Shown piece by piece: positions 2,751 through 24,691 of a stretch of DNA of 55,824 nt. The stretch's first letter is position 1. Each line of letters opens with the position of its first letter. This DNA is from a virus: the IMG/VR virus record IMGVR_UViG_3300038429_000537, positions 1 to 55,824 of that record. One strand, written 5' to 3'. The notes under the pieces are model-generated. The model saw only the letters and a program-made list of their open reading frames with translations. It made no database searches and had not been told where the DNA came from. The translations under genes and the position numbers were made by a program.

Positions 2751-2986
2751 TCGGCGCTCCCGTGAAACCCGGTGGGTTGACTAACCCGTTGCGACCACTA
2801 GGAGGCAAGCAGACGGTTGGCAGCATCCTGGGTAATATGCACCAGGGGGGTAAGGTCCCGGAGGACGGTGTTTATGAACTCAAGAAGGACGAAGAGGTCA
2901 CGCCGCCTTCGAAGAAAAAGAATCCGACCCCAGCCGGTCGTAACTCCAAGTACCGCAAGGTGTACCTCGATCGAAAGAAAAAGTAA
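2747..2986 (+). CDS. Small basic protein with PEDGVYELKK motif (79 aa)
   Basis: ATG overlaps the previous stop, and its TAA overlaps the terminase ATG (TAATG). Residues about 35-50 carry KVPEDGVYELKKDEEVTPP, which matches the short 'ED..Y.L.KGE.V.P' motif seen in many phage structural proteins and is shared with the gene at 2181. The C-terminus is strongly basic (RKVYLDRKKK). By position it could be a small terminase-associated DNA-binding subunit, but no helix-turn-helix is visible. Confidence 0.55.
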   Translation: MIGAPVKPGGLTNPLRPLGGKQTVGSILGNMHQGGKVPEDGVYELKKDEEVTPPSKKKNPTPAGRNSKYRKVYLDRKKK

Positions 2987-8576: not shown

Positions 8577-9632
8577 TTGTCTGTAAGTAACGCTCAGGCA
8601 TCATTTGTCATTGGCACTACCCTTCCATCTACCCAAGCGGTCTTTTACGATCGTTTGGCCGTAAGAGCGCTGTTTGCGCACCTGGGTTTCCAGGGCCTGA
8701 CGGCGGAACGGCAGATCCCAAAGAATGCTGGTCGTACGACACAGATTTACACCTATAATCTGTCGCCGTTTACGGCTAACGTCGTGGCTGCCGGTACCGA
8801 CCTCGGCGGCAGTATCCTTGATACTGCTCCGTCGACAGCGACCGAAGGCGCCGTGGGCACGCCGATCACACCGACCGAAGCAAGCATCCAGGCCACCCTG
8901 GGACAGTACGTTGACTACGTCAATGTGTCTGACTTTGCTCTCGCGGTGGATATCGGCAAGCCTCTCGAACAGCTCAGCGAAATGCTGGGTTATCGAGGCG
9001 CACTCGTAGTCGACACGTTGATTCAGCAAGGCTTTGACGCGGCTGTCTCAACTGACACGACTGCCAGTGTGACGGTAGCGGACGGATCTTACGTGACCCG
9101 TGCGGTTATCAATACCGCCGTGGCGACGATTCGCGGGAAGAACGGGCGGCCTTTTGCCGGCGGACGGCATCGTGGGATCATGCATCCCTATATTCTGTCT
9201 GACGTGGCGAACGACCTAACCCACAACGGTGTTCTTGACACCGAGAAGTTTACCCGTGAAGGGCAGAAGTGGATCGAAGCCGGCCTTGCCGAGGATAACG
9301 AGATCATTCCGATCGCAGGAGTGGACTTCGTGATGTCGACGAACGTTCCCCTGATTTCGAATATCCCGGCCTCTGGCAAGTCAGCCTACGCAACCTACAT
9401 CACGGCGGACGAGGTAATGTTCTCGATCGCTTTGGGCGGGTTCGAAGACGTACCGGATGAGTCCAACTTCAAGGCCAACATTTACCAATTCGCCCCGAAC
9501 TCGTTTGACCCAGGCGGCGAAATTGGTGGAGCGGTGAGTTACAACTTTAAGTTCGTTGTGACTCCGCGTCCGGCAGCCGGTGGGACCTACCTACCGTTCC
9601 GTCGGATTCTTAGCGAAACTGCTGTCGCGTAA
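8577..9632 (+). CDS. Major capsid protein, N4-gp56-like
   Basis: 351 residues resembling the N4-gp56 family of HK97-fold capsid proteins: YDRLAVRALFAHLGFQ near the N-terminus, a beta segment TTQIYTYNLSPF, LGQYVDYVNVSDFALAV, and a C-terminal domain with beta-rich stretches. The only possible start is TTG 8577, because an in-frame TGA lies four codons upstream; GAGGTGA provides the ribosome-binding site. It is flanked by hairpins on both sides, as expected for a very abundant message. Confidence 0.8.
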   Translation: MSVSNAQASFVIGTTLPSTQAVFYDRLAVRALFAHLGFQGLTAERQIPKNAGRTTQIYTYNLSPFTANVVAAGTDLGGSILDTAPSTATEGAVGTPITPTEASIQATLGQYVDYVNVSDFALAVDIGKPLEQLSEMLGYRGALVVDTLIQQGFDAAVSTDTTASVTVADGSYVTRAVINTAVATIRGKNGRPFAGGRHRGIMHPYILSDVANDLTHNGVLDTEKFTREGQKWIEAGLAEDNEIIPIAGVDFVMSTNVPLISNIPASGKSAYATYITADEVMFSIALGGFEDVPDESNFKANIYQFAPNSFDPGGEIGGAVSYNFKFVVTPRPAAGGTYLPFRRILSETAVA

Positions 9633-9743: not shown

Positions 9744-10472
9744 ATGGCACTTGCCGATAGTTACGTTAAATTCGAATTTGCTCCTGAGATGGATCTCGAA
9801 GAGCAACGCAAGGCTGCCCTCTTGGAAGAGATGGGCATCAACCAGAACGATACGGACAAACTTCGTAAGATGATGCTCAGTGCCGATGAAGCCGTTTGCG
9901 CTAGGCACGAAGAGCAAGTCAAGATTCGACAACACAAAGGCCGGAAGGACCAGTGGGAAGAGTTTATCGACGCGAAGCGTCGTATGGGGCGGGTGCTGCA
10001 TCACTCGGAAATTATCGAACGGTTGCGGCAGATCGTTCCCTCGTTGATCGTTGCCCCAGGCGCGCAGCAGAACCGAGTGGGTCTTTACGTGATACGTAAC
10101 ATGGCGGTGAGTGAAATACCCAACTACCCGCTAACCGCCAACGGGTTGGCCTACACGGACGTGCCGATTTACATCGGCTGGCTGGAACTTGGTGAGTCAC
10201 CGGAGTACGAAATCGATCTAGTGAATGACGTGGACGTGGCTATTGGGCAGCGTCGTGGTTGGCGAACTTTGCTGCTGCGCTTGATTGCCCGGCGCGCCGC
10301 TCACTGCAAGCAGTGTGAGCTCAACCCGAAGTTTCACTCAGGCCAGAAGGGCCGCTCAACGTCGTTGGTTAGCGAGCAGCAGGCCGAAAAAGTTTTTGGA
10401 TACCCGAGCAACGGACCGACGGCGAGCAACTATCGCCGGCAGCTTTGGGAGTTTCGCAACGGTATTCTTTAA
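9744..10472 (+). CDS. Hypothetical head-module protein (242 aa)
   Basis: Starts after GAGGAATTGAAGC and follows the capsid gene. The N-terminal third is charged and helical, the middle has beta-type segments (LTANGLAYTDVPIYIGWLEL), and the C-terminal part has a Cys pair (HCKQCEL). It ends in SNYRRQLWEFRNGIL. The position fits a head-completion or decoration protein, but I recognise no family. Confidence 0.6.
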   Translation: MALADSYVKFEFAPEMDLEEQRKAALLEEMGINQNDTDKLRKMMLSADEAVCARHEEQVKIRQHKGRKDQWEEFIDAKRRMGRVLHHSEIIERLRQIVPSLIVAPGAQQNRVGLYVIRNMAVSEIPNYPLTANGLAYTDVPIYIGWLELGESPEYEIDLVNDVDVAIGQRRGWRTLLLRLIARRAAHCKQCELNPKFHSGQKGRSTSLVSEQQAEKVFGYPSNGPTASNYRRQLWEFRNGIL

Positions 10473-10540: not shown

Positions 10541-11017
10541 GTGAAAGACCAAAATGAAGATGTAGTGTCCAAGGTTGACTTCCCGGTGACGTTGACCACA
10601 GATCAGGTGATGCGGATGCTCTTGCAGACGCAGGCCGACCTGGCAAAGTCGCAGCAGCAACTGGCGGATGCTATCCTGGAGTCGCGGAAGCCTTACGTTG
10701 ATCCAAAGGTACTTGCGCAAAAGCAAAAGCAACTCGAGGAGCGGCGCCAGCAAATCGCTCACGATCAAGCGGTAAAGATCGCGACGAAAAAGCAGTGCCC
10801 GCACACCCGTGAAAACGGCACCTCGAACATCAAGTGGATGGAGCACAGCAACGGGATCATCCTCGGTGTTTGCGGAACTTGCGCTTCACAGTTCTGCGCC
10901 AAAGGTCCGGACGCCACGGCCAGTGATCGTGATCTGCTACGGAAGGATCTCAAGTCGCTCAAGAACATGGGTCGCGCCGGCCAGCACGCTCAAGCCGGGG
11001 CAATAATTGAGGGATAA
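10541..11017 (+). CDS. Coiled-coil protein with C-terminal zinc-ribbon-like motif
   Basis: GTG start at 10541 after TAGGAGAAAC. The first two-thirds are Gln/Lys-rich helix with heptad character (LLQTQADLAKSQQQLADAI...). The C-terminal third has CPHTRENG, then after about 20 residues CGTCASQFC, a likely zinc site (C-x2-H ... C-x2-C). Head-tail joining or nucleic-acid contact are both possible; function unknown. Confidence 0.6.
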   Translation: MKDQNEDVVSKVDFPVTLTTDQVMRMLLQTQADLAKSQQQLADAILESRKPYVDPKVLAQKQKQLEERRQQIAHDQAVKIATKKQCPHTRENGTSNIKWMEHSNGIILGVCGTCASQFCAKGPDATASDRDLLRKDLKSLKNMGRAGQHAQAGAIIEG

Positions 11018-11226: not shown

Positions 11227-12177
11227 ATGGCGCGTAAAGACGTTAACATCGTCACTTCTCTCGTGGGAAAGGGCCTCGAACGTGAGGCCCTACTCCTGCG
11301 TGAGTTGCTCGCGACTCACGATGTCTATACTAACTTTTATCACTATTGTAATTATGCCGGTTCAAATTTTGTACGGGCAGATATTAATCTCTTCCTTGAA
11401 GTGATGATGCCCAACGTGCTCACGCTCTCGCGAGAAAACTGGCTTTTTCCGAACGACGAGTGGTGGAACAGTCTCAACGACCAATTTTTGCCACGCATCA
11501 CCAAAGTTTGCTGTAAGACGCAGGATTCTTTTCGCCACTGGTGTCAGAAGGTCGACCCAGCGAAGTGTGTGTACGTGGGCTTTGAAGCCCGTGACCTTTA
11601 CCACCCGGAAATACCGCGAGAGAACAAGTTCTTGCACCTGGCGGGTGGCTCGGAGTTTAAGAATACCGAGGCGGTCATCCAAGCGTGGAAAAACGGTAAC
11701 TGGGCCTACAAGCCGTTTCCGTTGACGGTGGTCACGCTGCAAAAGAAGTGGCAGGCGCTGTGTGAGGACGTCGATAATGTCACATGGATCCCGCGAGTGA
11801 ACGAGGATGAGTTGGTACAGTTGATGAACTCGCATCGCTTTCACTTGATGCCGAGTGCCTATGAGGGGTTTGGGCACGCGATTCACGAAGGGCTAGGCTG
11901 CGGTGCCCTAGTGTTGACAACCGACGCGCCGCCGATGAACGAGTTTGATGGGATCGTAACCGAGTGGAAGATACCGGTCGTGAGTCAGACGCCGCGGTCC
12001 TTAGCTCAACTTAATCAAGTAAGTCTAATAGGAGTGCAAGCGGCGGTGTGCAAAGCTATCGAAACAACGAGTCATCCTAACGAGTTGGAACGACGGTCGT
12101 GTGCAGCCCGTGAAGCTTTCTTAGTTGCGCGTCAGGACTTTCGGCAGAAGTTTTTGTCGCTGGTAGGAGTAGCGTGA
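11227..12177 (+). CDS. GT-B fold glycosyltransferase, GT4-like
   Basis: 316 residues. The C-terminal half has the GT4-type signature EGFGHAIHEGLGCGALVLTTDAPPMNE with the two Glu residues spaced seven apart (E-x7-E) that contact the nucleotide-sugar donor. The N-terminal acceptor half is divergent. There is no membrane segment, so it should be cytoplasmic. It opens the + strand glycan cluster, and its TGA overlaps the GTG start of the radical SAM gene. An 8-bp hairpin (AGGGCCTC/GAGGCCCT, about 11270-11291) lies in its first codons. Acceptor unknown. Confidence 0.82.
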   Translation: MARKDVNIVTSLVGKGLEREALLLRELLATHDVYTNFYHYCNYAGSNFVRADINLFLEVMMPNVLTLSRENWLFPNDEWWNSLNDQFLPRITKVCCKTQDSFRHWCQKVDPAKCVYVGFEARDLYHPEIPRENKFLHLAGGSEFKNTEAVIQAWKNGNWAYKPFPLTVVTLQKKWQALCEDVDNVTWIPRVNEDELVQLMNSHRFHLMPSAYEGFGHAIHEGLGCGALVLTTDAPPMNEFDGIVTEWKIPVVSQTPRSLAQLNQVSLIGVQAAVCKAIETTSHPNELERRSCAAREAFLVARQDFRQKFLSLVGVA

Positions 12178-13637
12178 AGCTCTGCCTAATCGTTCCGCCC
12201 TCCGTGTTCCTGCTCGATGAGCGCGTGTTCATGACGCTGGGCATCCTTCGGGTGGCGGCGGTACTAGAAAACGCGGGGCACCAGGTTGAAGTCTTAGACC
12301 TTTCGGGCGTGGCTAATTACGGGGAAGCGGTTCGGGACTATGTTCTCAGTTCGGAGGTAGAACTTTTTGGGTTGACGGCCACGACCCCCCAGTTACCGGC
12401 AGCGATCGAGGTTGCCACCGTAATTCGGCTGAACAAACCCGGCGCTCGGCTGATTTTGGGTGGTCCGCACGTCACCCTAGTTAACGCGGCCCGGAAAAAG
12501 GGTATCAGTAGGGCCGAAAAAGCCTTTAGGCAGCTACAGGCCCACTTTAACCAGCTAGTGGCCGGGGACGGCGAAAAGGCCGTTTTTCAGGCCCTTTCGA
12601 ACCCGTCGACCACCCTGGTGGATGCCGACGACCTCCAATCGGACCTGTTTTTGATCAACCAGGTGCTCTCGGAGCTACCCTTTCCGGCTCGGCACCTAGT
12701 GGACGTGGGCAGTTACCACTACCAGATTGACGGAGCCCGGGCCACGAGCCTGATCGCGCAGCTGGGTTGTCCCTTCGGGTGTGGGTTTTGCGGCGGACGG
12801 AGTTCGCCAACGTTCCGCAAGATCCGAATGCGGTCAATTGAGAGTATCGTCGCTGAGCTAAGACACTTGTACGAGACCTACGGGTTCACCGGGTTCATGG
12901 TTTACGACGACGAGTTGAACGTGAACCCGCAGATGGTAAAGCTGATGGGCGCGATTGGGCAGCTCGCTCAAGAACTTAATGTCGAGTTCAAGCTGCGGGG
13001 TTTCGTGAAGGCCGAGTTGCTCACCGACGAGCAGGCAGCGGCGATGTACCGGGCCGGCTTCCGGTGGATTTTAGTAGGTTTTGAGTCGGGGTCACCGCGT
13101 ATCTTGAAGAATATCCAGAAGAAGGCCACGCGAGAGGATAACACGCGGGCGGTTGAGATCGCGCGACGTCACGGGCTGAAGGTCAAGGCGTTAATGTCGC
13201 TCGGCCATCCCGGTGAATCGGCTGCGACGGTCCTTGAAACCTACGACTGGTTGCTGAAGGTCCGTCCGGATGACTTCGACGCGACGATCATCACCCCGTA
13301 TCCCGGCACGCCTTATTATGACAACGCTTTCCTCGTGTCACAAGAGGAAGGAATCTGGAAGTACGTGATAAACGGTGACGCACTTTATAGCCTAGAAGTG
13401 GATTACACCAGAGTTGCAGATTACTACAAAGGCGATCCGAATGACGGGTACGTGTCCTACGTGTTTACGGACTTTTTAAGCTGCGTAAAGTTAGCTGAGT
13501 GGCGTGATTGGCTTGAGAAGAAAGTGCGTGAGACTTTGAACATTCCGTTTAACCCGTCGTTGCCGGCGCAGCGCTACGAGCATTCGATGGGGTGTTTGCC
13601 GCCGAGTATTTTAAGGGTACAGCATGTCGCCAATTAA
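12174..13637 (+). CDS. B12-binding-domain radical SAM enzyme
   Basis: 487 residues, GTG start overlapping the previous TGA (GTGA). Residues about 1-135 form a cobalamin-binding-like Rossmann domain (ILRVAAVLENAGHQVEVLDL, LILGGPHVT), without the base-off DxHxxG His. The radical SAM core follows, with the iron-sulphur ligands Cys199, Cys203 and Cys206 in GCPFGCGFCGG, then a YDDE-type segment and GFESGSPRILKNI. Such enzymes often methylate unreactive carbons or rearrange sugars. Its place among glycosyltransferases suggests it tailors a sugar or a lipid/peptide acceptor; that part is inference. Confidence 0.88.
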   Translation: MKLCLIVPPSVFLLDERVFMTLGILRVAAVLENAGHQVEVLDLSGVANYGEAVRDYVLSSEVELFGLTATTPQLPAAIEVATVIRLNKPGARLILGGPHVTLVNAARKKGISRAEKAFRQLQAHFNQLVAGDGEKAVFQALSNPSTTLVDADDLQSDLFLINQVLSELPFPARHLVDVGSYHYQIDGARATSLIAQLGCPFGCGFCGGRSSPTFRKIRMRSIESIVAELRHLYETYGFTGFMVYDDELNVNPQMVKLMGAIGQLAQELNVEFKLRGFVKAELLTDEQAAAMYRAGFRWILVGFESGSPRILKNIQKKATREDNTRAVEIARRHGLKVKALMSLGHPGESAATVLETYDWLLKVRPDDFDATIITPYPGTPYYDNAFLVSQEEGIWKYVINGDALYSLEVDYTRVADYYKGDPNDGYVSYVFTDFLSCVKLAEWRDWLEKKVRETLNIPFNPSLPAQRYEHSMGCLPPSILRVQHVAN

Positions 13638-14523
13638 CGTCGTCTGGAGTGAAGGAGTATTGGGGGGTGACGGGCGATCGCGCTACGCAACGAACACGCT
13701 GTTGAACACTGCCATCGATCGGGCGGAGGTGGGATTCGTCCATAGAAATGGATGGGCTGAGCTGCCGAGTGATGCCTCGGGTGCGGTGGTCGTTATCCAA
13801 GGCGAGCACCTGGCGGGTCAAGAAGCTGACCTGCTAAACCGGATGGCTTCTTTTTCTTGGGCGTTGACGGTCGTGATGGGCGACGAGTGCCGGAGGTTCA
13901 ACTCCCGTCCCTTTGTTGGTCCGAGGCGTAAGGTTTGGCGCCAGTATCCCATCCCTGGAAAGCACGACTATGAGGATCGTCGGCTAACGGCGGGCTATCC
14001 TCAAGACTGCCCCATGTACCTTGAGCATCTACAAGACGTGCTGGCGAACAAGACGCTCGACTTTTCTTACGCCGGGCAGGTGAACAGCGCCACTCGCCAA
14101 GCGTGCGTGTCCCAGTTAAGATCGTTGCCCAACGGCTACGTTTACCAGTCCTCGGGGTTCTGGCAAGGTCTGCCGCGGGACGAGTACTACCGCAAGGTGG
14201 CCGAGTCTAAGGTGATCGCCTGTCCGGGTGGGGCGGCTTTTCCCGAGAGCCTTCGCATGGGTGAGGCCCTCGAAGCCGGCTGTGTGCCGGTGGTAGAAGA
14301 TTGTTTCATCGTAGGTACGAGCTATTGGAAGTACGTGTTGGGTGAAGAACTGCCGTTTCCCACCCTGACGAACTGGCAGGATTTCCCGCGGTTGTTAGAG
14401 CAGGTCTTGAGGGAGTGGCCGGCAAACCGCAATAGGTTGCAAACCTGGTGGGCGGGTTACAAGGCGAGGATGCCGCGGTGGTTTGAAGAGGACCTACGAG
14501 CGGTGGGAGCCTTAGATGCTTGA
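13624..14523 (+). CDS. Exostosin-like (GT47-type) glycosyltransferase
   Basis: 299 residues, start overlapping the radical SAM gene by 14 bases. The C-terminal signature SKVIACPGGAAFPESLRMGEALEAGCVPVV matches the donor-binding region of exostosin/GT47-like GT-B enzymes. The N-terminal part has FSYAGQVNSATRQACVSQL, also typical of that family. Cytoplasmic, no signal peptide. The stop region overlaps the next gene by eight bases. Confidence 0.75.
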   Translation: MSPINVVWSEGVLGGDGRSRYATNTLLNTAIDRAEVGFVHRNGWAELPSDASGAVVVIQGEHLAGQEADLLNRMASFSWALTVVMGDECRRFNSRPFVGPRRKVWRQYPIPGKHDYEDRRLTAGYPQDCPMYLEHLQDVLANKTLDFSYAGQVNSATRQACVSQLRSLPNGYVYQSSGFWQGLPRDEYYRKVAESKVIACPGGAAFPESLRMGEALEAGCVPVVEDCFIVGTSYWKYVLGEELPFPTLTNWQDFPRLLEQVLREWPANRNRLQTWWAGYKARMPRWFEEDLRAVGALDA

Positions 14524-15250
14524 TGACCAAGTCACCGCGCTCATTCCTACCAGCCCCATCCCGCGCCACCCGGATACGGGATTGATCGAGGAGTGCATCG
14601 GCGGTATTCGCTCTTATTTTCCCGAGGCACGGATCATCGTAATGGCCGACGGGATACGGCCTGCGGTGGAGCACCGCCGCGGCCAGTATGAGGAGTACAA
14701 AAAACGGTTGGCCGAGAAGATTGACTCACACCAGTTGGGTCGAACCGAGCTGATGCTTTTTGACGAGCCGTGGCAGCAAGCAGAAATGACGAAGAGAACC
14801 CTTGAGAAGGTTACCACCCCGTTGATTCTCTTCGTGGAACACGATGCGGTTTTTCAACCTGAAACCAAGGTCGTCTTTTCCGACATCTTCGACCTGCTGC
14901 TGAAAGGCGATGCCAACATTGTTCGGTTCTACAATTGGAAGGACATTTGGTGGGAGCATGCTTACCTGATGCGGGGTGAGTTTACCCACGGCAGTTCACG
15001 CTTTGTCAAAACGGTACAGTACTCACAATGGCCGCTAGTGTCGCGAACGGACTATCACCGAAAGATTTTGAGCGAATACTTTGCTCCCTTTGAGCGCAAG
15101 ATGATCGAGACGAAAATGTACGGACCGGTAGCTAGCTCACAGTGGGAAGAACACAAGATTGTGATTTACCTCAACGGCGAGCTTCCGTTTATGCATCACG
15201 ATGGACGCACAGACCGAGTCACCGGTCGACGCGACCCGGCGGAGTGGTAG
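14516..15250 (+). CDS. GT-A-like glycosyltransferase, paralogue of the 17066 gene
   Basis: 244 residues. It begins with ALIPTSPIPRHPDTGLIEE and RIIVMADGIR, a nucleotide-sugar-binding first half, then FVEHDAVFQ, which can serve as the acidic metal-binding motif. The gene at 17066 shares the same skeleton (TSPVPSHPSTWLLE, RIVVLADG, MVAEGDW), so the two look like paralogues. Glycosyltransferase is the best reading; donor and acceptor unknown. Confidence 0.65.
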   Translation: MLDDQVTALIPTSPIPRHPDTGLIEECIGGIRSYFPEARIIVMADGIRPAVEHRRGQYEEYKKRLAEKIDSHQLGRTELMLFDEPWQQAEMTKRTLEKVTTPLILFVEHDAVFQPETKVVFSDIFDLLLKGDANIVRFYNWKDIWWEHAYLMRGEFTHGSSRFVKTVQYSQWPLVSRTDYHRKILSEYFAPFERKMIETKMYGPVASSQWEEHKIVIYLNGELPFMHHDGRTDRVTGRRDPAEW

Positions 15251-15252
15251 CC

Positions 15253-15957
15253 GTGAGCATGGGCGACCTGAACACAAACATGCGGGAACGGTATGAGCCG
15301 AGTGTGTTTAACAGCGTACGTGGTCTCTTGAAACCAGGTGAGTTGGTGTTTGACGTGGGCGCGTATGATGGGATTACCTCGGACATTCTTGCTACGATCG
15401 TCGGCCCCGAGAACGTCGTGATCGTCGAGCCCGGAGAAATGGATTGGGGAACCATCCGGGCTTACTGGAACGCCCAGGGTCACGTGGCGCCTCGGGCAAC
15501 CTACGCGGGGTTTTTAAACGATACCGATCGGCCCGGCCTGGACCCTCGAAGTGTGGTGCACGTTGGGAAGTTTCCTCCGGAGGCGGAACAGTCAATCGTG
15601 GCTCAGGCGGAGGAAGGGTTAAATTTTCGCCTACTAAGTGATCGTGAGAAGTACCCCGAGGTGATGGCCCGACCCTGGCTCAGGCTTGACACGGTCGTTT
15701 CAATCACGGGCACTCCGGCCGGGATCGTGATGGACGTGGAGGGTGCCGAACTGTTAGTCCTTCGCGGGGCAGAAGAAACGCTTAAGAGCGGCCGGCCGTT
15801 AGTGTGGGTTGAGGTTCATTTGAAGCAAATGCCGGAATTTTTTGGGACGAGTGACGTGGAACTACACGCTTTTATGAAGGGGCTAGGTTACCGAGAGACC
15901 TTGCTCGATAACGCTATTCAAGAGCATTGGTTGTTCGAGCCAGAGGAACGTTCCTGA
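15253..15957 (+). CDS. FkbM-type SAM methyltransferase
   Basis: 234 residues from GTG 15253, which has GGAG eight bases upstream; ATG 15259 is an alternative. The SAM-binding loop is LVFDVGAYDGITS. The C-terminal signature GIVMDVEGAELLVLRGAEETL is characteristic of FkbM-family methyltransferases, which O-methylate sugars or other small acceptors. In this cluster a role in methylating a glycan residue is likely. Longer upstream reading frames overlap the preceding gene and were rejected. Confidence 0.85.
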   Translation: MSMGDLNTNMRERYEPSVFNSVRGLLKPGELVFDVGAYDGITSDILATIVGPENVVIVEPGEMDWGTIRAYWNAQGHVAPRATYAGFLNDTDRPGLDPRSVVHVGKFPPEAEQSIVAQAEEGLNFRLLSDREKYPEVMARPWLRLDTVVSITGTPAGIVMDVEGAELLVLRGAEETLKSGRPLVWVEVHLKQMPEFFGTSDVELHAFMKGLGYRETLLDNAIQEHWLFEPEERS

Positions 15958-17069
15958 TGATCCTTCCACCCGTATCGCTAGTCATAATCTATAAGGATCG
16001 CGCGGCGCAGCTCGTGAAAAGCTTGGATTCGATTGCGCGCCAAAATTATCCTGCCCTTGAGGTTGTTATCGTCGAGGACGGGGATGATGGTGGGGTGGTT
16101 GCCGAGATCGCCCAACGTTACGGTGCGCGGCACCTGAGTGTTCCGGCACGGCCCGCGCCGATTGAGTCAGGCCGCGATCATTACTGGACGGCGAATCAGC
16201 CGTTCGGCAACCTGTCGGTGCTGCACAACCGGGCTATCGCGGCGGCGTCAAATGAGGTTGTCCTTTTCCAAGATGCTGAGTTTAGGCACGATACTCCTCG
16301 AGTCATTGAGGAGTTAGTTGCGCAGGTCGTGGATAACCCGCGGGTGCTCATGACTTGCTCGACGGGGTACGAGACTGACGCGACAGGAAAAGTTAGGGTT
16401 AGCTGCGGGCTGCCCTATTCTAGCTTTGGCTGTATGCAAAAGTCGACGCTGTTGGCGGTGGGCGGTTTTGAGGAGGCGATGGAGGGCTACAGCTACGACG
16501 ACAACTACTTCGCGTTCCTGTTAGGAAAAAACAAGATTGAGGTGCGGACTCTAGTACCCGTTGTCGTTACGCATCAGTGGCATCGGTCCATCGGGGGATA
16601 CAATTATCCGACGGGGCGGGCAGGTCGGGCGTTGTGCACGCGTTTGATGCACGAGATAAACAAGGGGTTAAGACCGCCGATTGCCAACTATCGGGTGCGT
16701 GAGGTTTTAGACGCCGCTGATTTTTCAACGGTCGGGCGCAAGGACGTTGAGACCTTGGTCAGGAAAGGAATTGATGCTTTTCGCACGGCTCCCCCAATAA
16801 ATAGTTATGATAGATGGAACGCCTGGGCTACAGAATGGCTTGCCGGGAAGTATGATGAGCACGGCGACATCGCACAAGGGGTGATTGAGCGAACGCCGGC
16901 ACCGACCCGGGAGGATGCGACGATGATCTCGGTCGTTGAGACGGCCTGGGCTTTGCGATGTTGGGAGAACGTGGTGCAGGCGGGAGCGACGACGCCCGCC
17001 GAGCACCTCATGGACTGGGCGCGGACCGCGGCGACGTGCGCCCAACGTGGCGAGGCACCCAATCGATGA
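15957..17069 (+). CDS. Family 2-like glycosyltransferase (GT-A)
   Basis: 370 residues; ATG overlaps the FkbM stop (TGATG). The N-terminal GT2 core reads VSLVIIYKDRAAQLVKSLDS, then EVVIVEDGDDGG, then LFQDAEFRHD containing the acidic metal site. GGFEEAMEGYSYDDNYFAFLL is the galactosyltransferase-type acceptor segment with catalytic-base candidates. The about 120 C-terminal residues are helical with no recognised domain. Stop overlaps the next ATG (ATGA). Confidence 0.85.
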   Translation: MILPPVSLVIIYKDRAAQLVKSLDSIARQNYPALEVVIVEDGDDGGVVAEIAQRYGARHLSVPARPAPIESGRDHYWTANQPFGNLSVLHNRAIAAASNEVVLFQDAEFRHDTPRVIEELVAQVVDNPRVLMTCSTGYETDATGKVRVSCGLPYSSFGCMQKSTLLAVGGFEEAMEGYSYDDNYFAFLLGKNKIEVRTLVPVVVTHQWHRSIGGYNYPTGRAGRALCTRLMHEINKGLRPPIANYRVREVLDAADFSTVGRKDVETLVRKGIDAFRTAPPINSYDRWNAWATEWLAGKYDEHGDIAQGVIERTPAPTREDATMISVVETAWALRCWENVVQAGATTPAEHLMDWARTAATCAQRGEAPNR

Positions 17070-17890
17070 TACGAACTGACGACGACGCACGTTTCGCCGT
17101 ACCGTTGCCGCTCGACGTAAAGGCCGTCATGCGGCAGGGGGCGCGGCCGTTTACCCCAGCCGATGAGTTCGTACAGGTTAACCTAACGACCGTGATTTTT
17201 ACTTCGCCGGTGCCGTCGCACCCAAGTACCTGGCTGCTGGAAAACGTTTATGACTCGATCCGCTATCACCTACCCAACATGAGGATCGTGGTATTAGCGG
17301 ATGGGACGGATGGGGATGAGCCTGGGAGCTATGTTGAGTTTAAGAACCAAGCGCGACGAAAAGGTTGGGAGCTACTAGCATTCAAGGGGCGGCACCTCCA
17401 GTCCCTGATGCTACGTGAGGCACTTTTGAACGTGGTAAAGACACCACTAGTCATGGTTGCGGAAGGCGATTGGGGGCTTCGAAAATTGTATGTCGATTGG
17501 TGCGGGATCGCTGAGGTGTTGCTGGACCCAACGTGTCGTTACAAACTAGTTCAGTTACGGCAGGATCGCTTAGGGGACTGGGAACTAACCAGCCGGGATC
17601 ATAGTTTTGGCGCCCTGGAATGCTACCACGGGGTCAACCTGTTGCCGACGACGTGGTTCCAGTGCCCGACACACGTTGCGAACAGCGACTGGTACCGCCG
17701 GCTGGTTCCGTTCATGCTCACGCCACAGTTTCTTGAACGTGACGAGTTGACCGAGGGAATGAGGTTCATCGGGGCCCTTGATGAGATGGCTTGCTATATA
17801 CCGCCTGGACCGATGATGGGGCGGTGCTACCATCTTGACGGGCGAAACGTAGTGAATATCCGTCAAGCGGACGGCCTAGACTATGCCTAA
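17066..17890 (+). CDS. GT-A-like glycosyltransferase, paralogue of the 14516 gene
   Basis: 274 residues; the start at 17066 gives an ATGA overlap, while a longer frame from 16958 is a shadow over the previous gene. Shares the order TSPVPSHPSTWLLE, IRYHLPNMRIVVLADG, PLVMVAEGDW and a late aromatic/His segment with the 14516 protein. A short unique N-terminal extension (about 35 residues) is present. Probably transfers a related sugar or acts on the neighbouring position of the same glycan. Confidence 0.65.
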   Translation: MIRTDDDARFAVPLPLDVKAVMRQGARPFTPADEFVQVNLTTVIFTSPVPSHPSTWLLENVYDSIRYHLPNMRIVVLADGTDGDEPGSYVEFKNQARRKGWELLAFKGRHLQSLMLREALLNVVKTPLVMVAEGDWGLRKLYVDWCGIAEVLLDPTCRYKLVQLRQDRLGDWELTSRDHSFGALECYHGVNLLPTTWFQCPTHVANSDWYRRLVPFMLTPQFLERDELTEGMRFIGALDEMACYIPPGPMMGRCYHLDGRNVVNIRQADGLDYA

Positions 17891-18794
17891 ACTCTTACTT
17901 ACGGGCGCGACTAGCTTTATCGGCAGAAGATTTCTCGAGGACGTTCTCGAGGGTACCGATTGGGAGGTCTATTCAATCGAACGGCAATACCAACCTGACC
18001 TGCCCCGGGTGCTTCGCTTCTACCACGATCTGCGAGCTGAGGTACCAACACAGCTCGTCGAACGAGTTAAGGATGCCGATTACCTAGTTCACCTAGCGGC
18101 GGACGTGTCCGGCATCAAGTCCCTAGCAGACCCGGTGTTGACGGTTACCACAAATGTGGTAGGGACCTACCACACCCTGGAATTGGCCCGAAAGTTAGAG
18201 CTGAAAAAGTTTGTCTACGTGTCAAGCGGGGAGGCAGTGGGGGCGGCTCCTTTTCCGACGTGTCTGGTTGAAGATGCCTCGTTGCGGCCGTCAAATCCCT
18301 ACGCAGCTAGCAAGGCGGCTGCCGAAGCCCTAGTGAACAGCTACCGAGTTTCATTTGGATTGCCGGCCGTCACCGTGCGAATGATGAACATCTTTGGGCC
18401 GGGGCAGCAGTTAACACGCTTCGTGCCGATGGCAGTTAAGAACTTGCTTGAGAAGCAGATAATTAAGTGCCACGTTGGCCCAGACGGGCGGTGTGGTTCA
18501 CGAAACTGGCTGCACGTTGGTCACTTCTCACAAGCATTATTGAACCTAGTTGGTGTTAAGCCTGGAATCTATCACGTGATCGGACCGGAACGTAGCAATC
18601 TAGACATCATCTTAGGGTTGGCTAAAGCTTTGGATGTGTCGTTTTGCGTCAAGAACGTGGTTCCTGGCCCGTCACATGACCTGCGGTACGCTTTAAAGGA
18701 TACGAAGTTGGGCTTAGACTTTAGCGCTGATTTTGACGAGACTCTAGCGGCTACCGCGCAGTGGTACGACGTCCACCGGGAGGCGCTCGTATGA
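17883..18794 (+). CDS. Extended SDR (NAD-dependent sugar epimerase/dehydratase family)
   Basis: 303 residues. Nucleotide-binding loop TGATSFIG (the middle Gly of TGxxGxxG is Ser), catalytic YVSSGEAVG and YAASK (Tyr-x3-Lys). It lacks the Thr-Asp-Glu triad of 4,6-dehydratases, so epimerase, reductase or decarboxylase activity on an NDP-sugar is more likely. The segment GSRNWLHVG is shared with the next gene (GSRNWAYVG), suggesting tandem duplication. Start overlaps the previous gene by eight bases. Confidence 0.82.
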   Translation: MPKLLLTGATSFIGRRFLEDVLEGTDWEVYSIERQYQPDLPRVLRFYHDLRAEVPTQLVERVKDADYLVHLAADVSGIKSLADPVLTVTTNVVGTYHTLELARKLELKKFVYVSSGEAVGAAPFPTCLVEDASLRPSNPYAASKAAAEALVNSYRVSFGLPAVTVRMMNIFGPGQQLTRFVPMAVKNLLEKQIIKCHVGPDGRCGSRNWLHVGHFSQALLNLVGVKPGIYHVIGPERSNLDIILGLAKALDVSFCVKNVVPGPSHDLRYALKDTKLGLDFSADFDETLAATAQWYDVHREALV

Positions 18795-19720
18795 GCCGCT
18801 TTCTGGTTACCGGCGCCGCGGGTTTTGCCGGGTCGCACATCGTAGAAGAATTACTGCGTCAGGATCACGAGGTCCTAGGTTTGGACTGTCTAACTTATGC
18901 CGGCCCGTTAGTGAACTTAGCCAATCTAACGGGGTTGCGGTTCAAGTTTGTCTACCATGATTTTACGCAATCGTTGCCCGACCTTGGCCCGGTAGACTAC
19001 GTGATCCACAACGGGGCAGCGAGTCACGTGCTGCGGTCGCTACAGGATCCGGAGACGTTCGTGCGATCGAACGTGTTGGGCACTTTGAACGTATTGGAGT
19101 GGGCCCGAAAATATCCGGTTAAAAAGTTTGTCTACGTGTCGACGGACGAGGTTTTTGGGCCGGCGGGCAACGAGCCGTACCACGAGGGTGATCGGCTGCG
19201 GCCGACGAACCCTTACTCAGCCAGCAAGGCCGGCGGAGAGTTTTTAGTTCGTAGTTACTTTCGGTCCTTTGGCATACCGGCGCTGATTACCCGGACGATA
19301 AATATGTACGGCGAGCGTCAACATCTTGAGAAGTTTGTGCCTTTAGTCGTCGGTCGATTACTACGGGGTGAGACGGTCGACATCCACGCGGAAAGCGGCA
19401 AGGTAGGTTCGCGTAACTGGGCTTACGTGGGTGAACAGGCTCGGGCGTTGATTTACCTCGCCGAAGAGGGCGAACCGGGCAAAGCCTACCACGTGGCTGA
19501 GGGCGTCAGGAAAAACAACCTAGAGATGGCGCAACTAGTGGCTGGCATTTTGGGTGTTGAACTTAAATACCGGCTGATCGAGTACGCTTGGCCAGGACAC
19601 GATTTTAGCTACAGCTTGAGCGTGAAAGGTACGCCACAGCACGTTCATTGGAAGATGTCGGAGAGTTTTGAAGAGTTGCTTCGCAAGACGGTGTGGTGGT
19701 ACCGGGAGCAGTTGTCATGA
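18791..19720 (+). CDS. NDP-glucose 4,6-dehydratase-like SDR
   Basis: 309 residues from ATG 18791 (ATGA overlap). TGAAGFAG at the N-terminus binds NAD; YVSTDEVFG supplies the Thr-Asp-Glu triad typical of dTDP-glucose 4,6-dehydratases (RmlB type), and YSASK the Tyr-x3-Lys. RTINMYGERQHLEKFVPL matches the family's substrate region. It would produce a 4-keto-6-deoxy NDP-sugar for the surrounding transferases. UDP-glucuronate decarboxylase is an alternative within the same fold. Confidence 0.85.
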   Translation: MSRFLVTGAAGFAGSHIVEELLRQDHEVLGLDCLTYAGPLVNLANLTGLRFKFVYHDFTQSLPDLGPVDYVIHNGAASHVLRSLQDPETFVRSNVLGTLNVLEWARKYPVKKFVYVSTDEVFGPAGNEPYHEGDRLRPTNPYSASKAGGEFLVRSYFRSFGIPALITRTINMYGERQHLEKFVPLVVGRLLRGETVDIHAESGKVGSRNWAYVGEQARALIYLAEEGEPGKAYHVAEGVRKNNLEMAQLVAGILGVELKYRLIEYAWPGHDFSYSLSVKGTPQHVHWKMSESFEELLRKTVWWYREQLS

Positions 19721-20631
19721 AGATCGTTTTTCTGGGCAACTTTTCGGTTCCTTTTTCCACGGAGTCACACCACCGTTGTACCTGGGAGAAATTAGGGCAC
19801 CAGGTGGTGGCACTGCAGGAGAACCGGGCGACTACGGATGAGGTAGTTAACGCGTGCCACGGTGCTCAGCTTTGCCAGCTAACCCACACCCACGGGTGGT
19901 CAACCCCGGGATCGTTCTCCTGTGAAGAGATGATGCGCCGGATTAAGGACCTGGGCGTCCCCACGATGTCCTACCACTTGGACTACTACCACGGGCTGAG
20001 CACCTGGGACAAGCGAGCGGACCGGGTAGGACAGGCCTGGGACTGGAAGACGGACTACTGGTTCTCGACGGACGGGGCTCACGACGATTGGTTCAAGGAC
20101 CGTGGTGTTAACCATCATTGGCTACCGCCCGGGGTGGTTGAGTATGGTTGTTATGAGGGAAACCGGCAACCGGGCTTGGCGGTCGACGTTGGTTTTGCGG
20201 GAAGCGCGAACTACCATCCGGAATATCCGTTTCGTGGTATAATGGTTGCAGCACTTCAGCGGCACTACGGACCTCGGTTTCGAGTCTTTCAGGGTTACCG
20301 CGAGCAGAACCTCAACAATTTGTACGCGTCGGTAAAGGTGATGGTGGGCGACCACTGTTTCGCCGGGCAACCCAAGTACTGGAGTGATCGTTTACCTGAG
20401 ACCTGTGGGCGGGGCGGATTCATCCTCTATCCGCGAACCGAGGGAATGGCCATTCCCACGGCCACGTACGAGCCGCAAAACGTGGCTGACCTGATTGCGA
20501 AGATTGATTACTACCTAGCCCACGAGACCGAGCGTGAAGAGATTCGGAAGCGCTGCTTTGAGTACGTTAAGGCCCACGATACCTATACTCATCGGTTGCA
20601 AGAGGTTCTTCAGGTGATGGAACTTGCATGA
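19717..20631 (+). CDS. GT-B glycosyltransferase, CgeB-like
   Basis: 304 residues; ATG 19717 overlaps the previous stop. N-terminal MKIVFLGNFSVPFSTE and a later VDVGFAGSANYHPEYPFRG are typical of CgeB/DUF3880-type GT-B proteins, and RLPETCGRGGFILYPRTEGM is the donor-binding segment. The C-terminal helix (REEIRKRCFEYVKAHDTYTHRL) matches the end of that family. Likely part of the same glycan assembly. Confidence 0.75.
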   Translation: MKIVFLGNFSVPFSTESHHRCTWEKLGHQVVALQENRATTDEVVNACHGAQLCQLTHTHGWSTPGSFSCEEMMRRIKDLGVPTMSYHLDYYHGLSTWDKRADRVGQAWDWKTDYWFSTDGAHDDWFKDRGVNHHWLPPGVVEYGCYEGNRQPGLAVDVGFAGSANYHPEYPFRGIMVAALQRHYGPRFRVFQGYREQNLNNLYASVKVMVGDHCFAGQPKYWSDRLPETCGRGGFILYPRTEGMAIPTATYEPQNVADLIAKIDYYLAHETEREEIRKRCFEYVKAHDTYTHRLQEVLQVMELA

Positions 20632-21398
20632 AAATTTCGATTTGTATACCGGTGATGGGGATTTCCAGTGCTAAGGTGCTGTGTAGTGCACTGCACTCGA
20701 TCCTCTTGCAAGAATACAATGACGTGGAGCTCATACTGCAGGACGGTGATCCGGAACGCTCGATCGTAAGTGACTCACACGTTGACCTGCTTCTTAGCTT
20801 GTTTGACTTTAAGTACGCGGTGGGTCGTGACGGAGGCATTTTTGACGCAGTTAATAAATGCCTTCAACAATCGACCGGCAACATTCTGTACTTCATGTGC
20901 TCCGATGATCTCTTGTGCCCAGGGGCTTTAACGGCAGTGAATGCGGCTTTTGAGGCAGAGCGCTTCGGTGGTCCTTATTGGTTATATGGCCAGACGGTTT
21001 CGGCCGACGTTACCGGTAAGACGTTGGGAATTGACGGCGCGCCGACGACCTACGAGCAGCTTCTAGAGCGTAATTGCATCGGAGAGCCCGCGGTGTTCTG
21101 GAACCGGCAGCTGATGGAGCTAGCGGGAAAGTTTGACCTGCGGTACCGTCACGCGGCTGACTACGAGTTGTGGTTGCGATTTTGGGAACGGCGCGAACCG
21201 CTGTTCTTGGAGCAAACGTTGGGAATATTTCGGCACCACGCGGATCAGCATTCTAAAGTGAACGCTGCCGCGCTCGAAGTTGAAGCTAAGAAGATCTCAA
21301 CGCGGCACCAAAATTTTAGCGGTTTGATTGCCCGGGCGCACAACGTTCTCGCGCTACGACGATCTTATCCTGACGGAATTCCGGAGAGTGGGAACTAA
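20628..21398 (+). CDS. Family 2 glycosyltransferase
   Basis: 256 residues with a clear GT2 core: ISICIPVMGISSAKVLCSAL, then ELILQDGDPE, then a GRDGGIFDAVNKCLQQSTG segment, LYFMCSDDLL with the metal-binding acidic pair, and IGEPAVFWNRQL plus HAADYELWLRF for the acceptor side. No membrane anchor. It closes the + strand glycan cluster; the next gene, three bases on, is a tail adaptor. Confidence 0.88.
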   Translation: MKISICIPVMGISSAKVLCSALHSILLQEYNDVELILQDGDPERSIVSDSHVDLLLSLFDFKYAVGRDGGIFDAVNKCLQQSTGNILYFMCSDDLLCPGALTAVNAAFEAERFGGPYWLYGQTVSADVTGKTLGIDGAPTTYEQLLERNCIGEPAVFWNRQLMELAGKFDLRYRHAADYELWLRFWERREPLFLEQTLGIFRHHADQHSKVNAAALEVEAKKISTRHQNFSGLIARAHNVLALRRSYPDGIPESGN

Positions 21399-21401
21399 AC
21401 T

Positions 21402-22124
21402 ATGTCGAACACAACCATCAAGATTCAGGACACGCTCAACTGGGTTGCGGCCTTCGTTCAGCAGCGGCCGACGACCGGGGTGGCTGGCATCCCAAACGAA
21501 CCGGGCCTGACCGCGGCCAACAAGGTGATGCAGTCGATCCTCGCGCCGCCGTTCAAGTGGAGCTGGAATCGCAAGGAAGATTCGACCCTCACCTGCACGG
21601 CGGGAACTACCGACTACGCCGTATCTTTAAGCGATTGGGGATTTCTGGAAAAAGCTTACGGAACCTTAGCTTCTAACGACCCGCCGGTGTTCGAGATTGA
21701 AGTAGCCCAAGTACTGTCAAAGGAGTCGAAGGAGAACCGGCCGCAAAAGATCGCACCGATCACCGACGACAACAACGGTACGATCACCTTTCGATTGCTG
21801 CCGGCACCGGATAAGGCCTATGTGATCACCCTGGAGTACCAGAAGGCTGCCATCCTAGCTAGTTCGGTGGGCGCCACTTGGGCACCAATTCCCGACCGGT
21901 ACGCTTTTCTCTACGAGGCGGGACTGCTAGCCTACATGCAAGGAATTTATTCAGCCCAGCTCTACATGGCCAACATGCAGATCTTTTTCCGCCAGTTGGT
22001 AGGAGCGGCCGAAGGATTGACTGCCACGGAGAAGGCTATCTTCCTGGAGGATCAGCTCCGGATCCTTCGGACCCAGTCGAACTCGGCGATGGACGCCGCC
22101 CAAGGGAAGCAGGTGAGGTTATAA
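21402..22124 (+). CDS. Tail adaptor / tubular-A-like protein 1
   Basis: 240 residues. Segments ANKVMQSILAPPFKWSWN, TTDYAVSLSDWGFLEKAY and IPDRYAFLYEAGLLAYMQG recall the tail tubular/adaptor proteins of podoviruses that join the portal to the nozzle. The following gene is a longer paralogue with the same order of segments. The glycan cluster thus interrupts an otherwise ordinary head-to-tail gene order. Confidence 0.65.
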   Translation: MSNTTIKIQDTLNWVAAFVQQRPTTGVAGIPNEPGLTAANKVMQSILAPPFKWSWNRKEDSTLTCTAGTTDYAVSLSDWGFLEKAYGTLASNDPPVFEIEVAQVLSKESKENRPQKIAPITDDNNGTITFRLLPAPDKAYVITLEYQKAAILASSVGATWAPIPDRYAFLYEAGLLAYMQGIYSAQLYMANMQIFFRQLVGAAEGLTATEKAIFLEDQLRILRTQSNSAMDAAQGKQVRL

Positions 22125-22125
22125 C

Positions 22126-23142
22126 ATGCCTAGTACAACAGGATCTACGCTTACAGCACAAAAGTTGGTTGACTACGCTCGAACGTTCCCGTGGACCACG
22201 CCGGTGGTCGGACTCGCCGGTTACGCGGATCAGCCGGCCGTGTCCTTTCTCGACGAGGTGGTGAAGAAGATCCTCGCTAAGACTAACCCCTGGAAATTTA
22301 ACGCGGCGAAGTTCCCGGTCATTGAAACTTCTCCCTACCAGCAAGATTACCCAACATCGATCAGCCAGAATAACTTAGGCTGGTTGCAGGCAGCAATAAT
22401 CGCGGACATCAACAACACAGCTGTCCCGACGCCAATCCTGCCGATCAACACAGTGAACAGCTTGCTGCCGACGATGATTCCCGGCCGGCCACAGAAGGTC
22501 TCGTGGATTCCCAACGCTATTGCACAGACGGGAGTTTGGGGCCGCGGCCAACCGGCCGATCCCGGGCCGACTACAGCTTACACCAACCCGCTTGTCCTCC
22601 AGGGTGGCGGACCGACACTCAACAAACTGACGGCTATCACGGATCCGAACGGTAACATCCTCGTTGTGACGACTTACGGGATCACGGGTGCTACGGCGCC
22701 CACTTGGCCGGCGGCGAATGCTGCCGCTGGTACGACGGTGCTCGACGGTACGGTCACCTGGACGGTGGTGGACCCGAACGGGGTCGCACTGCGCGTGGAT
22801 TTCTTGGCTACCTACCAGTCGGTGGTGTGGGAGCTGCGGGTACTTTATCAACAGAAGCCACCGAACATCACTACGTTGACCCAGACGATCACGCCGATCC
22901 CGGATGACCTCAACTACTTGGTGAAGCAGGGCTTCTTGGCCTACTGTACCAAGCAAACTGACCGGGCTAAGTTTCCAGCAGAGTTTGCCCAGTGGATGGA
23001 AGACATTCAGATGGCGATGGGCGCGTCCGACCGTGAGTACCAAGAGTTCGGTTTCTACCCGTCGGCGCCGATCACCGGTGGTTCGGGTGAGGGTGGTGGA
23101 GTTGGAACTTGGGGGTACCCAGGGTGGCCGTCGTGGCAATAA
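22126..23142 (+). CDS. Tail adaptor / tubular-A-like protein 2 with inserted beta module
   Basis: 338 residues, one base after the preceding stop. Shares with its neighbour the order KKILAKTNPWKFN, QDYPTSISQNNLGWLQAA and IPDDLNYLVKQGFLAYCT. It differs by an insert of about 100 residues containing YGITGATAPTWPAANAAAGTTVLDGTVTWTVV, a module seen in many phage tail proteins and again in the 26699 protein. Gly-rich C-terminus. Its end overlaps the homing-endonuclease start. Confidence 0.65.
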   Translation: MPSTTGSTLTAQKLVDYARTFPWTTPVVGLAGYADQPAVSFLDEVVKKILAKTNPWKFNAAKFPVIETSPYQQDYPTSISQNNLGWLQAAIIADINNTAVPTPILPINTVNSLLPTMIPGRPQKVSWIPNAIAQTGVWGRGQPADPGPTTAYTNPLVLQGGGPTLNKLTAITDPNGNILVVTTYGITGATAPTWPAANAAAGTTVLDGTVTWTVVDPNGVALRVDFLATYQSVVWELRVLYQQKPPNITTLTQTITPIPDDLNYLVKQGFLAYCTKQTDRAKFPAEFAQWMEDIQMAMGASDREYQEFGFYPSAPITGGSGEGGGVGTWGYPGWPSWQ

Positions 23143-23867
23143 AAATTACCTGTATTTATTGCCTCTATGATCCGCGTGATCCTCAACAAATTCCTATGTA
23201 TGTAGGAAAGGGCTTGGCTAATCGGGCCCAGTCGCATTGGAAGTATTTCTTGCATACCGGAAAAACTGTAAATCCGCTTCTTTATACCTGGTTTGAGCAA
23301 CTTAAGTTAGAGGGTGTTGAACCTCATTGGAAATTTCTTGAAAAAGAAGTACTAATGAATAGATGGCAAGAAGCTGAAAAACTTTGGATTGGTTTATCTC
23401 GTGTGGTTAATCCTAAGTTATGTAATGTATCTTCTGGTGGAAATGCTTTTCATATTTCACATATTAGAGCCGTTGAACTGGGAAAAAAGTATGGAATGCT
23501 GGGCGGATGTCGTACTCATGAGCATGCGGTAAAAATGGGACAAATAGGTGGTAATCGTTCGAAAGAGTTATACCCTGAAATGGCGCGTCAATGTGGACTT
23601 AATCTAAATTCTCTCGCAGCGTTGGCAAAATCTCGCACACCTGAGCATCAAAAAGAAGCTAGCGACAAAGGTGGATGGGCACTTATGCATAAAAATAATC
23701 CGGGAAAAGCACGTGAGTTAGGACTTAAATATGGTCATCTTAGCCAAGAGTCAGGAAGACATACTCGTTGGCACGTTGCCCGTCATCAATTCAATCCCGA
23801 CTGTTCTCTGTGCCAGGCTAAGTTAAATCTTAAGCTAGATTTTTTCAGCGCCGAGGAGCAGCAGTAA
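23133..23867 (+). CDS. GIY-YIG homing endonuclease, free-standing
   Basis: 244 residues from GTG 23133 (GGGTGG upstream); GTG 23124 is possible. GIY-YIG signature: CIYCLYDPRDP ... MYVGKG, then Arg and the following helices. The C-terminus ends in HQFNPDCSLCQ, a Cys motif shared with the minus-strand endonuclease at 52831. The gene is visibly richer in A/T than its neighbours on both sides, a sign of recent transfer. It is placed between two coding genes without splitting either. Confidence 0.85.
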   Translation: MAIKITCIYCLYDPRDPQQIPMYVGKGLANRAQSHWKYFLHTGKTVNPLLYTWFEQLKLEGVEPHWKFLEKEVLMNRWQEAEKLWIGLSRVVNPKLCNVSSGGNAFHISHIRAVELGKKYGMLGGCRTHEHAVKMGQIGGNRSKELYPEMARQCGLNLNSLAALAKSRTPEHQKEASDKGGWALMHKNNPGKARELGLKYGHLSQESGRHTRWHVARHQFNPDCSLCQAKLNLKLDFFSAEEQQ

Positions 23868-24691
23868 TGCTCTCTGTCGTAATTACAAGTTGCCACGACG
23901 ACAAAGCTTGCTACTTAACGGCCTTCGCCGTCGCCTGCCAGCTCGAACAACTAGCGGCGCCGCACGAGATCATCATCGTAGCCGACGGCGGGACGGAAGT
24001 TAAGTGGGAAAATCAAGGCTTTCGCTGCCTCCGCGGTAACTTCGGCTCACCGCAGGCTTCACGCGACGCGGGCATTCGGGTAGCGCGCTACGCTGACGTT
24101 CTCGTCCTGGAGTCGCACGTGGTGGTTGACGACGTACCGAAACTTTTATTGGAGCACCAGTACCTACGCGCAGCCCTAACCTTCTGTTCACGTCGGGCCG
24201 AAGGCCCGGAGATGTTCGACGTCTACGGAGCGACCACGGACTGGGATGGAAGTCTCTGGTACAAGCGGCTGCTGTATGAACCTTGTAGCGATAAGCCGTA
24301 CCGGGTGAGCCAGTTCGGCAACTCGTGTTTCATCGTGAACCGGGAGTGGTACCTGAGTTCGGGCGGGTATACCAACCTGATGACCGGTTGGGGTGGTGAA
24401 GAACCGTTCTTGTGTCTGAAAGCTTGGATGACGGGCCGTGAGTGTTGGCTGGTGCCAACCGTCGCGCACTACCACTACCTCTCACCTGGGGCGCACGGTG
24501 GCGAGATCTTAGGCCAGAGTGAGAGTTACAAGCGAAACTTTCAGATTCTTGGTTACGTTATGGACGGTCGACCGATGCCGAACGTGACGCCGGAAATTAA
24601 AGCCGAGCGGCAAAAAATGTTGGATGGACGTTTTGCCGGAAGCACTGAGCGGTTACGGGCGTACTTTCAACGAGAGGGAGTGGTGAGCTAA
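23867..24691 (+). CDS. GT2/GT27-like glycosyltransferase in the tail module
   Basis: 274 residues; ATG overlaps the endonuclease stop (TAATG). GT-A features: LSVVITSCHDDKACYLTAF, HEIIIVADGGTE, SPQASRDAGIRVARYADVLV, and GGYTNLMTGWGGEEPFLCLKAW, the acceptor motif of galactosyl/GalNAc-type transferases. The usual acidic metal site is reduced to LVLESHVVVDD. Its location next to the tail fibre genes suggests it may modify a virion protein or belongs with the main glycan cluster. Confidence 0.78.
   Translation: MLSVVITSCHDDKACYLTAFAVACQLEQLAAPHEIIIVADGGTEVKWENQGFRCLRGNFGSPQASRDAGIRVARYADVLVLESHVVVDDVPKLLLEHQYLRAALTFCSRRAEGPEMFDVYGATTDWDGSLWYKRLLYEPCSDKPYRVSQFGNSCFIVNREWYLSSGGYTNLMTGWGGEEPFLCLKAWMTGRECWLVPTVAHYHYLSPGAHGGEILGQSESYKRNFQILGYVMDGRPMPNVTPEIKAERQKMLDGRFAGSTERLRAYFQREGVVS

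Follow-up and report, generated by a model that had tools for sequence, protein, structure and literature searches.

Glycosylation of phage virions is known experimentally from few phages, mainly those of mycobacteria. In mycobacteriophage Corndog (Cluster O), three glycosyltransferase (GT) genes and an O-methyltransferase gene lie between the portal and capsid protease genes (PMC4351075). Protein glycosylation and the role of gp38 have been reported for Corndog, with Freeman and colleagues (2023) as the cited source, and both gp38 and gp110 of mycobacteriophage Che8 (Cluster F) were called essential for capsid glycosylation (PMC12363180). The PBCV-1-type chloroviruses glycosylate their major capsid protein (MCP) in the cytoplasm; an exostosin GT and a GT-A enzyme occur in all 43 viruses, other GTs are variable, nucleotide-sugar enzymes are encoded, and one GT carries a predicted methyltransferase domain (PMC5408694). 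Here, we analysed an IMG/VR virus record of 55,824 bases from a soil phage (IMGVR_UViG_3300038429_000537, the window; coordinates are whole-window positions), which carries a cluster of eleven predicted glycan genes within its virion structural operon. We consider it likely that these genes encode a cytosolic phage pathway that adds a putative glycan to a virion protein, most likely that of the capsid.

Like the window, Corndog combines an O-methyltransferase with GTs (gp35-38) within the structural operon, but the set comprises four genes rather than eleven and belongs to a mycobacterial siphophage, the two being compared by description and not by sequence. Che8 gp108-110 also form a phage GT set; however, they lie at the far genome end, outside the structural operon, and none of them has a detectable homolog in the window. 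Several GTs with a methyltransferase and a same-strand position in the structural operon, both features of the Corndog/Che8-type cassette, are found in the window; a gp110 homolog is not. Likeness to the chlorovirus PBCV-1 system is at the level of enzyme classes only, so that the cluster would work like that system without being a member of it; chloroviruses are eukaryotic viruses and express their GT genes early.

ORF calling recovered 11 consecutive open reading frames (ORFs) at 11227-21398 on the plus strand, all intact and mostly overlapping (Table 1). This agrees with the original prediction, made from the letters alone, of eleven genes comprising seven GTs, two short-chain dehydrogenases/reductases (SDRs), an FkbM protein, and a radical SAM enzyme. 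The inventory was confirmed by Pfam and NCBIfam assignments, together with fold and profile evidence for the two ORFs without a family. These two, starting at 14516 and 16958, have no Pfam match and are paralogs of each other. The AlphaFold2 model of the 14516 protein (pLDDT 91.9) has a GT-A fold, with best PDB matches including SpsA, B4GALNT1, and TarS. This fold and the match of the 16958 protein to the 14516-family profile therefore indicate that the count of seven GTs is right. No matches were obtained when the GT47-like and GT-B profiles were searched against PDB sequences. The likely true starts of the genes with long overlaps are 15259 or 15253 (FkbM), 15957, 17066, 18791, and 19717, the last four leaving overlaps of 1 or 4 bases; with the likely starts, most cluster junctions overlap by 1-14 bases.

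Both SDRs (ORFs from 17883 and 18761) are dTDP-glucose-dehydratase-like by family. The 18761 protein contains STDEVFG and YSASK (YxxxK) motifs, and its closest PDB entries are dTDP-glucose 4,6-dehydratases. With the 4,6-dehydratase signature present in this SDR and absent from the 17883 protein, a 6-deoxyhexose nucleotide would be the likely product of the pair. The radical SAM enzyme has a CxxxCxxC motif at residue 199 and a B12 domain, AprD4 being its nearest solved protein; the gene was found only in the window and the near-identical contig L002. In addition, three minus-strand genes in a row at 53406-55059, weakly resembling nucleotidyltransferase, APH-like kinase, and HAD-like genes, are possibly a second sugar-activation set.

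Surface-glycan loci typically carry GT4, GT2, SDR, and FkbM families. The cluster has this composition and might instead remodel the host surface, changing the lipopolysaccharide or capsule of the infected cell, with superinfection exclusion or mimicry as the purpose. However, Pfam and a hydrophobicity scan revealed no flippase, polymerase, undecaprenyl-phosphate sugar transferase, GtrA-like protein, or multi-transmembrane glucosyltransferase among the cluster proteins. By Kyte-Doolittle scanning, no cluster protein has a clear membrane segment; borderline values came from N-terminal stretches of two proteins, 19693 and 20628. The membrane components of a serotype-conversion (gtrABC) or surface-polysaccharide locus were not detected. 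The position in the structural operon leaves little time for re-coating the host. In a two-pattern scan of genome contigs, which distant homologs would escape, the GT-B core enzyme occurred in one contig only, itself a phage. The host-surface mimic that the original prediction had offered as one option has no specific evidence in its favour, and we consider host-surface remodelling very unlikely. Since carrier-lipid and membrane enzymes are missing, stepwise cytosolic transfer onto protein is the simplest route.

To place the cluster in its lineage, we collected a clade of relatives by MCP and portal searches of viral contigs. The last conserved gene ahead of the cluster is g15. In every clade contig that extends well beyond it, the GT4 gene follows, and all clade contigs reaching the adaptor gene carry the GT cluster between g15 and the adaptor. 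The GT4, GT47-like, GT-A, and GT-B genes, at least one SDR gene, and an eighth GT gene downstream are recurrent, and the radical SAM, GT2, FkbM, and second SDR genes are variable. A more distant relative, L051/G021 (portal 48%, MCP 73% identity), has an empty junction: g15 and the adaptor are about 100 bases apart, and this stretch contains a terminator-like inverted repeat. The nearest cultured relative, Tunturiibacter phage Tunturi_3 (MCP 29%), is a podovirus of an Acidobacteriota host (PMC11924767); it has no GT at that junction, nor elsewhere by annotation. The comparison of related phages at this junction, proposed with the original prediction, thus separates cluster-bearing clade members from an empty site. 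Given the empty junction of L051/G021 and the Tunturi_3-like outgroups without the cluster, a single gain within the clade would be the simplest history. Distances between core GTs track those between portals (Mantel r 0.82-0.92, n 6-9), whereas those of FkbM (n=4) do not. In every cluster gene tested, the differences between the window and relative G004 fall mainly at third codon positions. Coding constraint acts on the cluster genes, which occupy a single fixed junction in the clade and are co-inherited with the portal gene.

Two artefactual or recent origins were considered. An assembly join to host DNA, which would have undermined the original prediction, is excluded by L001 and L002, which come from two other metagenomes and show the same gene order (L002 extends into the first GT2 gene), and by the clusters of diverged relatives. 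A recent host-derived island is not supported, given the cluster GC content, which matches the flanks, the divergence that tracks the portal, and the two-pattern genome-contig scan described above, which distant homologs would escape. A nucleotide search of the phage collection with the cluster region gave no match, and a search with the adaptor alone gave no relatives.

Outside the clade, further viral contigs were retrieved with the GT-A and GT47-like alignments and dereplicated, and co-occurrence was scored by profile searches. The core module (GT47-like, GT-A, GT-B) was recovered in 71 contigs, 62 of which have the full trio. It is always on one strand, with a median span of 3.8 kb; the GT47-like and GT-A enzymes are fused into one polypeptide in 41/71 contigs, and an FkbM gene lies near the module in 48/71. 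The original prediction held that phages rarely carry so many such genes. This calls for a qualification: the core module is widespread in uncultured phages, and the full eleven-gene form is an elaborated version of it. By contrast with the uncultured phages, five queries with GT47-like and GT-A proteins returned nothing from 50,697 cultured phage records; for the GT-B enzyme, distant homologs are present there in nine Streptomyces phages. The contigs behind L133, L161, L164, L186, and L190 seem, judged by their IMG numbers, to derive from genomes of isolates. Terminases and portals near the module are of several unrelated types, including mycobacteriophage-like, Gordonia-phage-like, and Vibrio-phage-like ones.

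A recognisable TerL, portal, or MCP gene lies within the 8 kb flanks of the module in 39/71 contigs, always on the module's strand; the TerL_ATPase Pfam model was too insensitive on these contigs, and profiles built from identified terminases were used instead. The portal (PF04860) is on the same strand in 12 of 13 contigs and also within 10 kb in 11 of them (null mean 4.3, P=1e-4). For the MCP (PF05065), the same strand was observed in 12/13 and a distance of at most 10 kb in 8/13 (null mean 3.9, P=0.014). The module follows the MCP gene at a distance of 1-684 bases in L119, L138, L139, L144, and L171. Orthologs of Che8 gp110 lie downstream of the trio in ten contigs (46% identity for L133; E values 1e-41 to 1e-66). 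As a separate observation, L119 (JAHFUP010000058.1), although binned in an Acidimicrobiia metagenome-assembled genome, is a phage with protease/portal-like, MCP, and adaptor genes.

In dozens of uncultured phages, the core set is again found next to capsid, portal, or packaging genes, and it therefore most likely decorates the virus particle. The original prediction proposed products acting on the virion. Comparative evidence favours this idea: the conserved junction, the empty-site relative, the recurrence beside virion genes, and the co-occurrence with orthologs of Che8 gp110, none of which singles out the glycosylated protein. In the proposed pathway, the cluster would be expressed late, and its soluble enzymes would act in the cytosol of the host during head and tail assembly. 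A 6-deoxy sugar nucleotide would be supplied by the two SDRs, one a predicted NDP-hexose 4,6-dehydratase and the other epimerase/reductase-like. The GT core (GT47-like, GT-A, and GT-B, here with GT4) would then assemble an oligosaccharide directly onto a protein of the virion; the first candidate is the MCP, a choice that we infer from adjacency and precedent. Methylation or deoxygenation of the sugars may be the task of FkbM and the radical SAM enzyme, and chain extension that of lineage-specific GTs. This order of enzymes is provisional, as is the presumed benefit, either a shield against surface recognition or adhesion and stability in soil. When the MCPs of cluster-bearing and empty-junction phages were compared for an obvious new acceptor segment, the difference amounted to a few loop residues and was not decisive.

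The occurrence of the module with several unrelated terminase, portal, and capsid types, together with the lack of cultured matches to its GT47-like and GT-A enzymes, leads to a broader reading, which we judge about as probable as its opposite. A widespread, undescribed phage system, consisting of a GT47-like and GT-A pair (often fused), a GT-B enzyme, and FkbM, would place a methylated oligosaccharide directly on the MCP, with the window among its most elaborate forms. Such a system would be a bacterial-virus counterpart of chlorovirus capsid glycosylation. If virion glycosylation is the right reading, a conserved enzyme module for it is common among uncultured phages, having been overlooked because the cultured phages in the searched collection lack it. 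It would provide a sequence signature for finding sugar-coated phages and soluble GTs possibly able to glycosylate proteins with no lipid carrier. It would also make testable the idea that glycans on the capsid influence the survival, adhesion, or recognition of phages.

Several observations weigh against virion glycosylation. Many module contigs are mutually related, and the counts given above are not fully independent. For 32/71 contigs, the vicinity of the module showed no recognisable virion gene, and in G045 (L142), the portal and MCP genes are distant and on the opposite strand. The site upstream of the terminase is also common for accessory genes, so that most contexts are suggestive and not specific to capsid modification. 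The window itself has no match to any Che8 GT or gp110-family profile. Lastly, the window carries on its minus strand, at 47612-48487, a thymidylate-synthase (TS) homolog; among solved proteins, its best relative is a CMP 5-hydroxymethylase.

The TS homolog opens the main rival, which the original prediction did not consider. In DNA hypermodification, 5-hydroxymethyl-dCMP would be made and incorporated, and the GT cluster would build oligosaccharides on hydroxymethylcytosine against restriction. T4 and its relatives put one or two sugars on hydroxymethylcytosine, and virus-encoded GTs that hypermodify DNA were reportedly described by Pyle and colleagues in 2024 (cited in PMC12619734). The window likewise combines GTs with a predicted (d)CMP hydroxymethylase, which has Asp at the TS nucleotide-specificity Asn position (lpyDcf versus pfNias) and adjoins, on the same strand, genes for a thymidylate-kinase-like protein with a UDG-like domain and for a C5-cytosine methylase homolog. 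The three genes (47612-50624, minus strand) are likely a DNA hydroxymethylcytosine set, and by their content the window phage may well contain hydroxymethylcytosine. However, the GT cluster is unlinked to them, lying 26 kb from the hydroxymethylase gene on the opposite strand, and its proteins have no Pfam match to T4-type DNA glucosyltransferases. The module also occurs in phages without a TS-family gene: PF00303 was detected in 0/50 other module contigs, many of 50-98 kb, whereas 9/14 control genomes were positive. Similarly, a clade relative with the GT cluster, covered over about 60 kb (G007 and G020, joined as one on 99.97% identity over 8.8 kb), has no TS or C5-methylase match. These absences lower the probability of the DNA alternative without removing it, as the contigs may be incomplete. 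A TET/JBP dioxygenase match was also found in 0/50 module contigs, but this family matched no control genome either. We consider a role of the cluster in DNA modification quite unlikely.

A sub-case of virion glycosylation differs in its acceptor, which would be a tail fibre or decoration protein, with the glycan tuning receptor binding. The eighth GT gene lies among the tail genes and adjoins an S74-type fibre gene, and the proteins of 24693-31102 have a high Ser plus Thr content. In Streptomyces phages, the GT-B homolog directly follows the large gene that ends the tail region. On the other hand, the known mycobacteriophage glycans are on the capsid and tail tube (PMC12619734, PMC12363180), and the module directly follows the MCP gene in the five contigs named above. 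We consider a tail-fibre or decoration-protein acceptor unlikely, and the capsid remains the preferred target. Among the Streptomyces phages, Yara and Gibson carry, on the tail-gene strand, a GT-B core homolog (about 30% identity), a second small gene of unknown type, and a methyltransferase gene (L032:13920-16124 and L033:13914-16158), but nothing matching the GT47-like or GT-A core enzymes. Both are culturable and, judged from these loci, are candidates for virion glycosylation.

Table 1. Positions of the cluster genes and neighbouring virion-region genes in the window, with the evidence for each assignment.
Feature	Coordinates	Strand	Evidence
MCP gene, candidate glycan acceptor	8577..9632	+	phrog_1357 major head protein E=5e-13; 29% to Tunturi_3 major head protein
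g14, conserved late gene, without family	9744..10472	+	conserved in clade and Tunturi_3 (28%)
g15, last conserved gene before cluster in relatives	10541..11017	+	alignment, synteny
GT4-type (GT-B) glycosyltransferase	11227..12177	+	PF00534 E=5e-9; found in every clade member reaching it
B12-binding radical SAM enzyme, accessory, putative sugar or glycan tailoring	12174..13637	+	PF04055, PF02310
RXYLT1_C/exostosin GT47-like glycosyltransferase, core module	13624..14523	+	PF24785 E=2e-8; alignment; also in 71 other dereplicated contigs
GT-A fold glycosyltransferase, core module	14516..15250	+	AlphaFold2 model; conserved ADG + E-H/Q-D motifs
FkbM-type methyltransferase	15259..15957 (longest ORF from 15142)	+	PF05050 E=5e-11
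GT2 glycosyltransferase, accessory	15957..17069 (longest ORF from 15927)	+	PF00535 E=4e-9
GT-A glycosyltransferase, paralog of 14516	17066..17890 (longest ORF from 16958)	+	14516-family profile E=1e-78
Extended SDR, epimerase/reductase-like (sugar-nucleotide)	17883..18794	+	PF01370 E=2e-36; YAASK, without TDE motif
Extended SDR, NDP-hexose 4,6-dehydratase signature	18791..19720 (longest ORF from 18761)	+	TIGR01181 E=6e-71, under its cut-off
GT-B glycosyltransferase (Glyco_trans_1_2), core module	19717..20631 (longest ORF from 19693)	+	PF13524 E=2e-11; phrog_28745 E=6e-38; alignment
GT2 glycosyltransferase, accessory	20628..21398	+	PF00535 E=6e-7
SU10-type neck adaptor, downstream cluster boundary	21402..22124	+	PF24175 E=3e-7
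Eighth GT, galactosyltransferase-like	23867..24691	+	PF02709 E=7e-4, under cut-off

The genes of this region run in the order terminase, portal, MCP, g14-g16, cluster, SU10-type adaptor, and further virion genes including the S74-type fibre gene. The cluster was originally placed between head-completion and tail-adaptor genes. The adaptor boundary holds, but head completion is a tentative label, as g14, g15, and g16 have no family match. Conserved C/H residues in the g15 alignment suggest a zinc ribbon. The eighth GT is conserved in the clade, with homologs of 47-61% identity in L022, L024, and L027, and was not found in L113/the empty-junction relative. The gene at 23109-23867 has a homolog (38%, L023:4087-4683) between TerL and portal in relative G004 and looks mobile.

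The MCP gene is uninterrupted in the window and interrupted in many relatives by 1-3 gaps of about 0.2-1.1 kb (L029:11358-14000, L022:17545-19292, L026:14493-16003, L027:16249-18047, L028:12009-14159, and L118:8173-11180). One of the gaps in L029 contains a group I intron (12907-13116). The window MCP is 82-92% identical to that of clade relatives whose TerL (window 2986-4821) is only 40-71% identical, the reverse of the usual relation. Co-conversion by homing introns is one idea that might explain an MCP more conserved than TerL.

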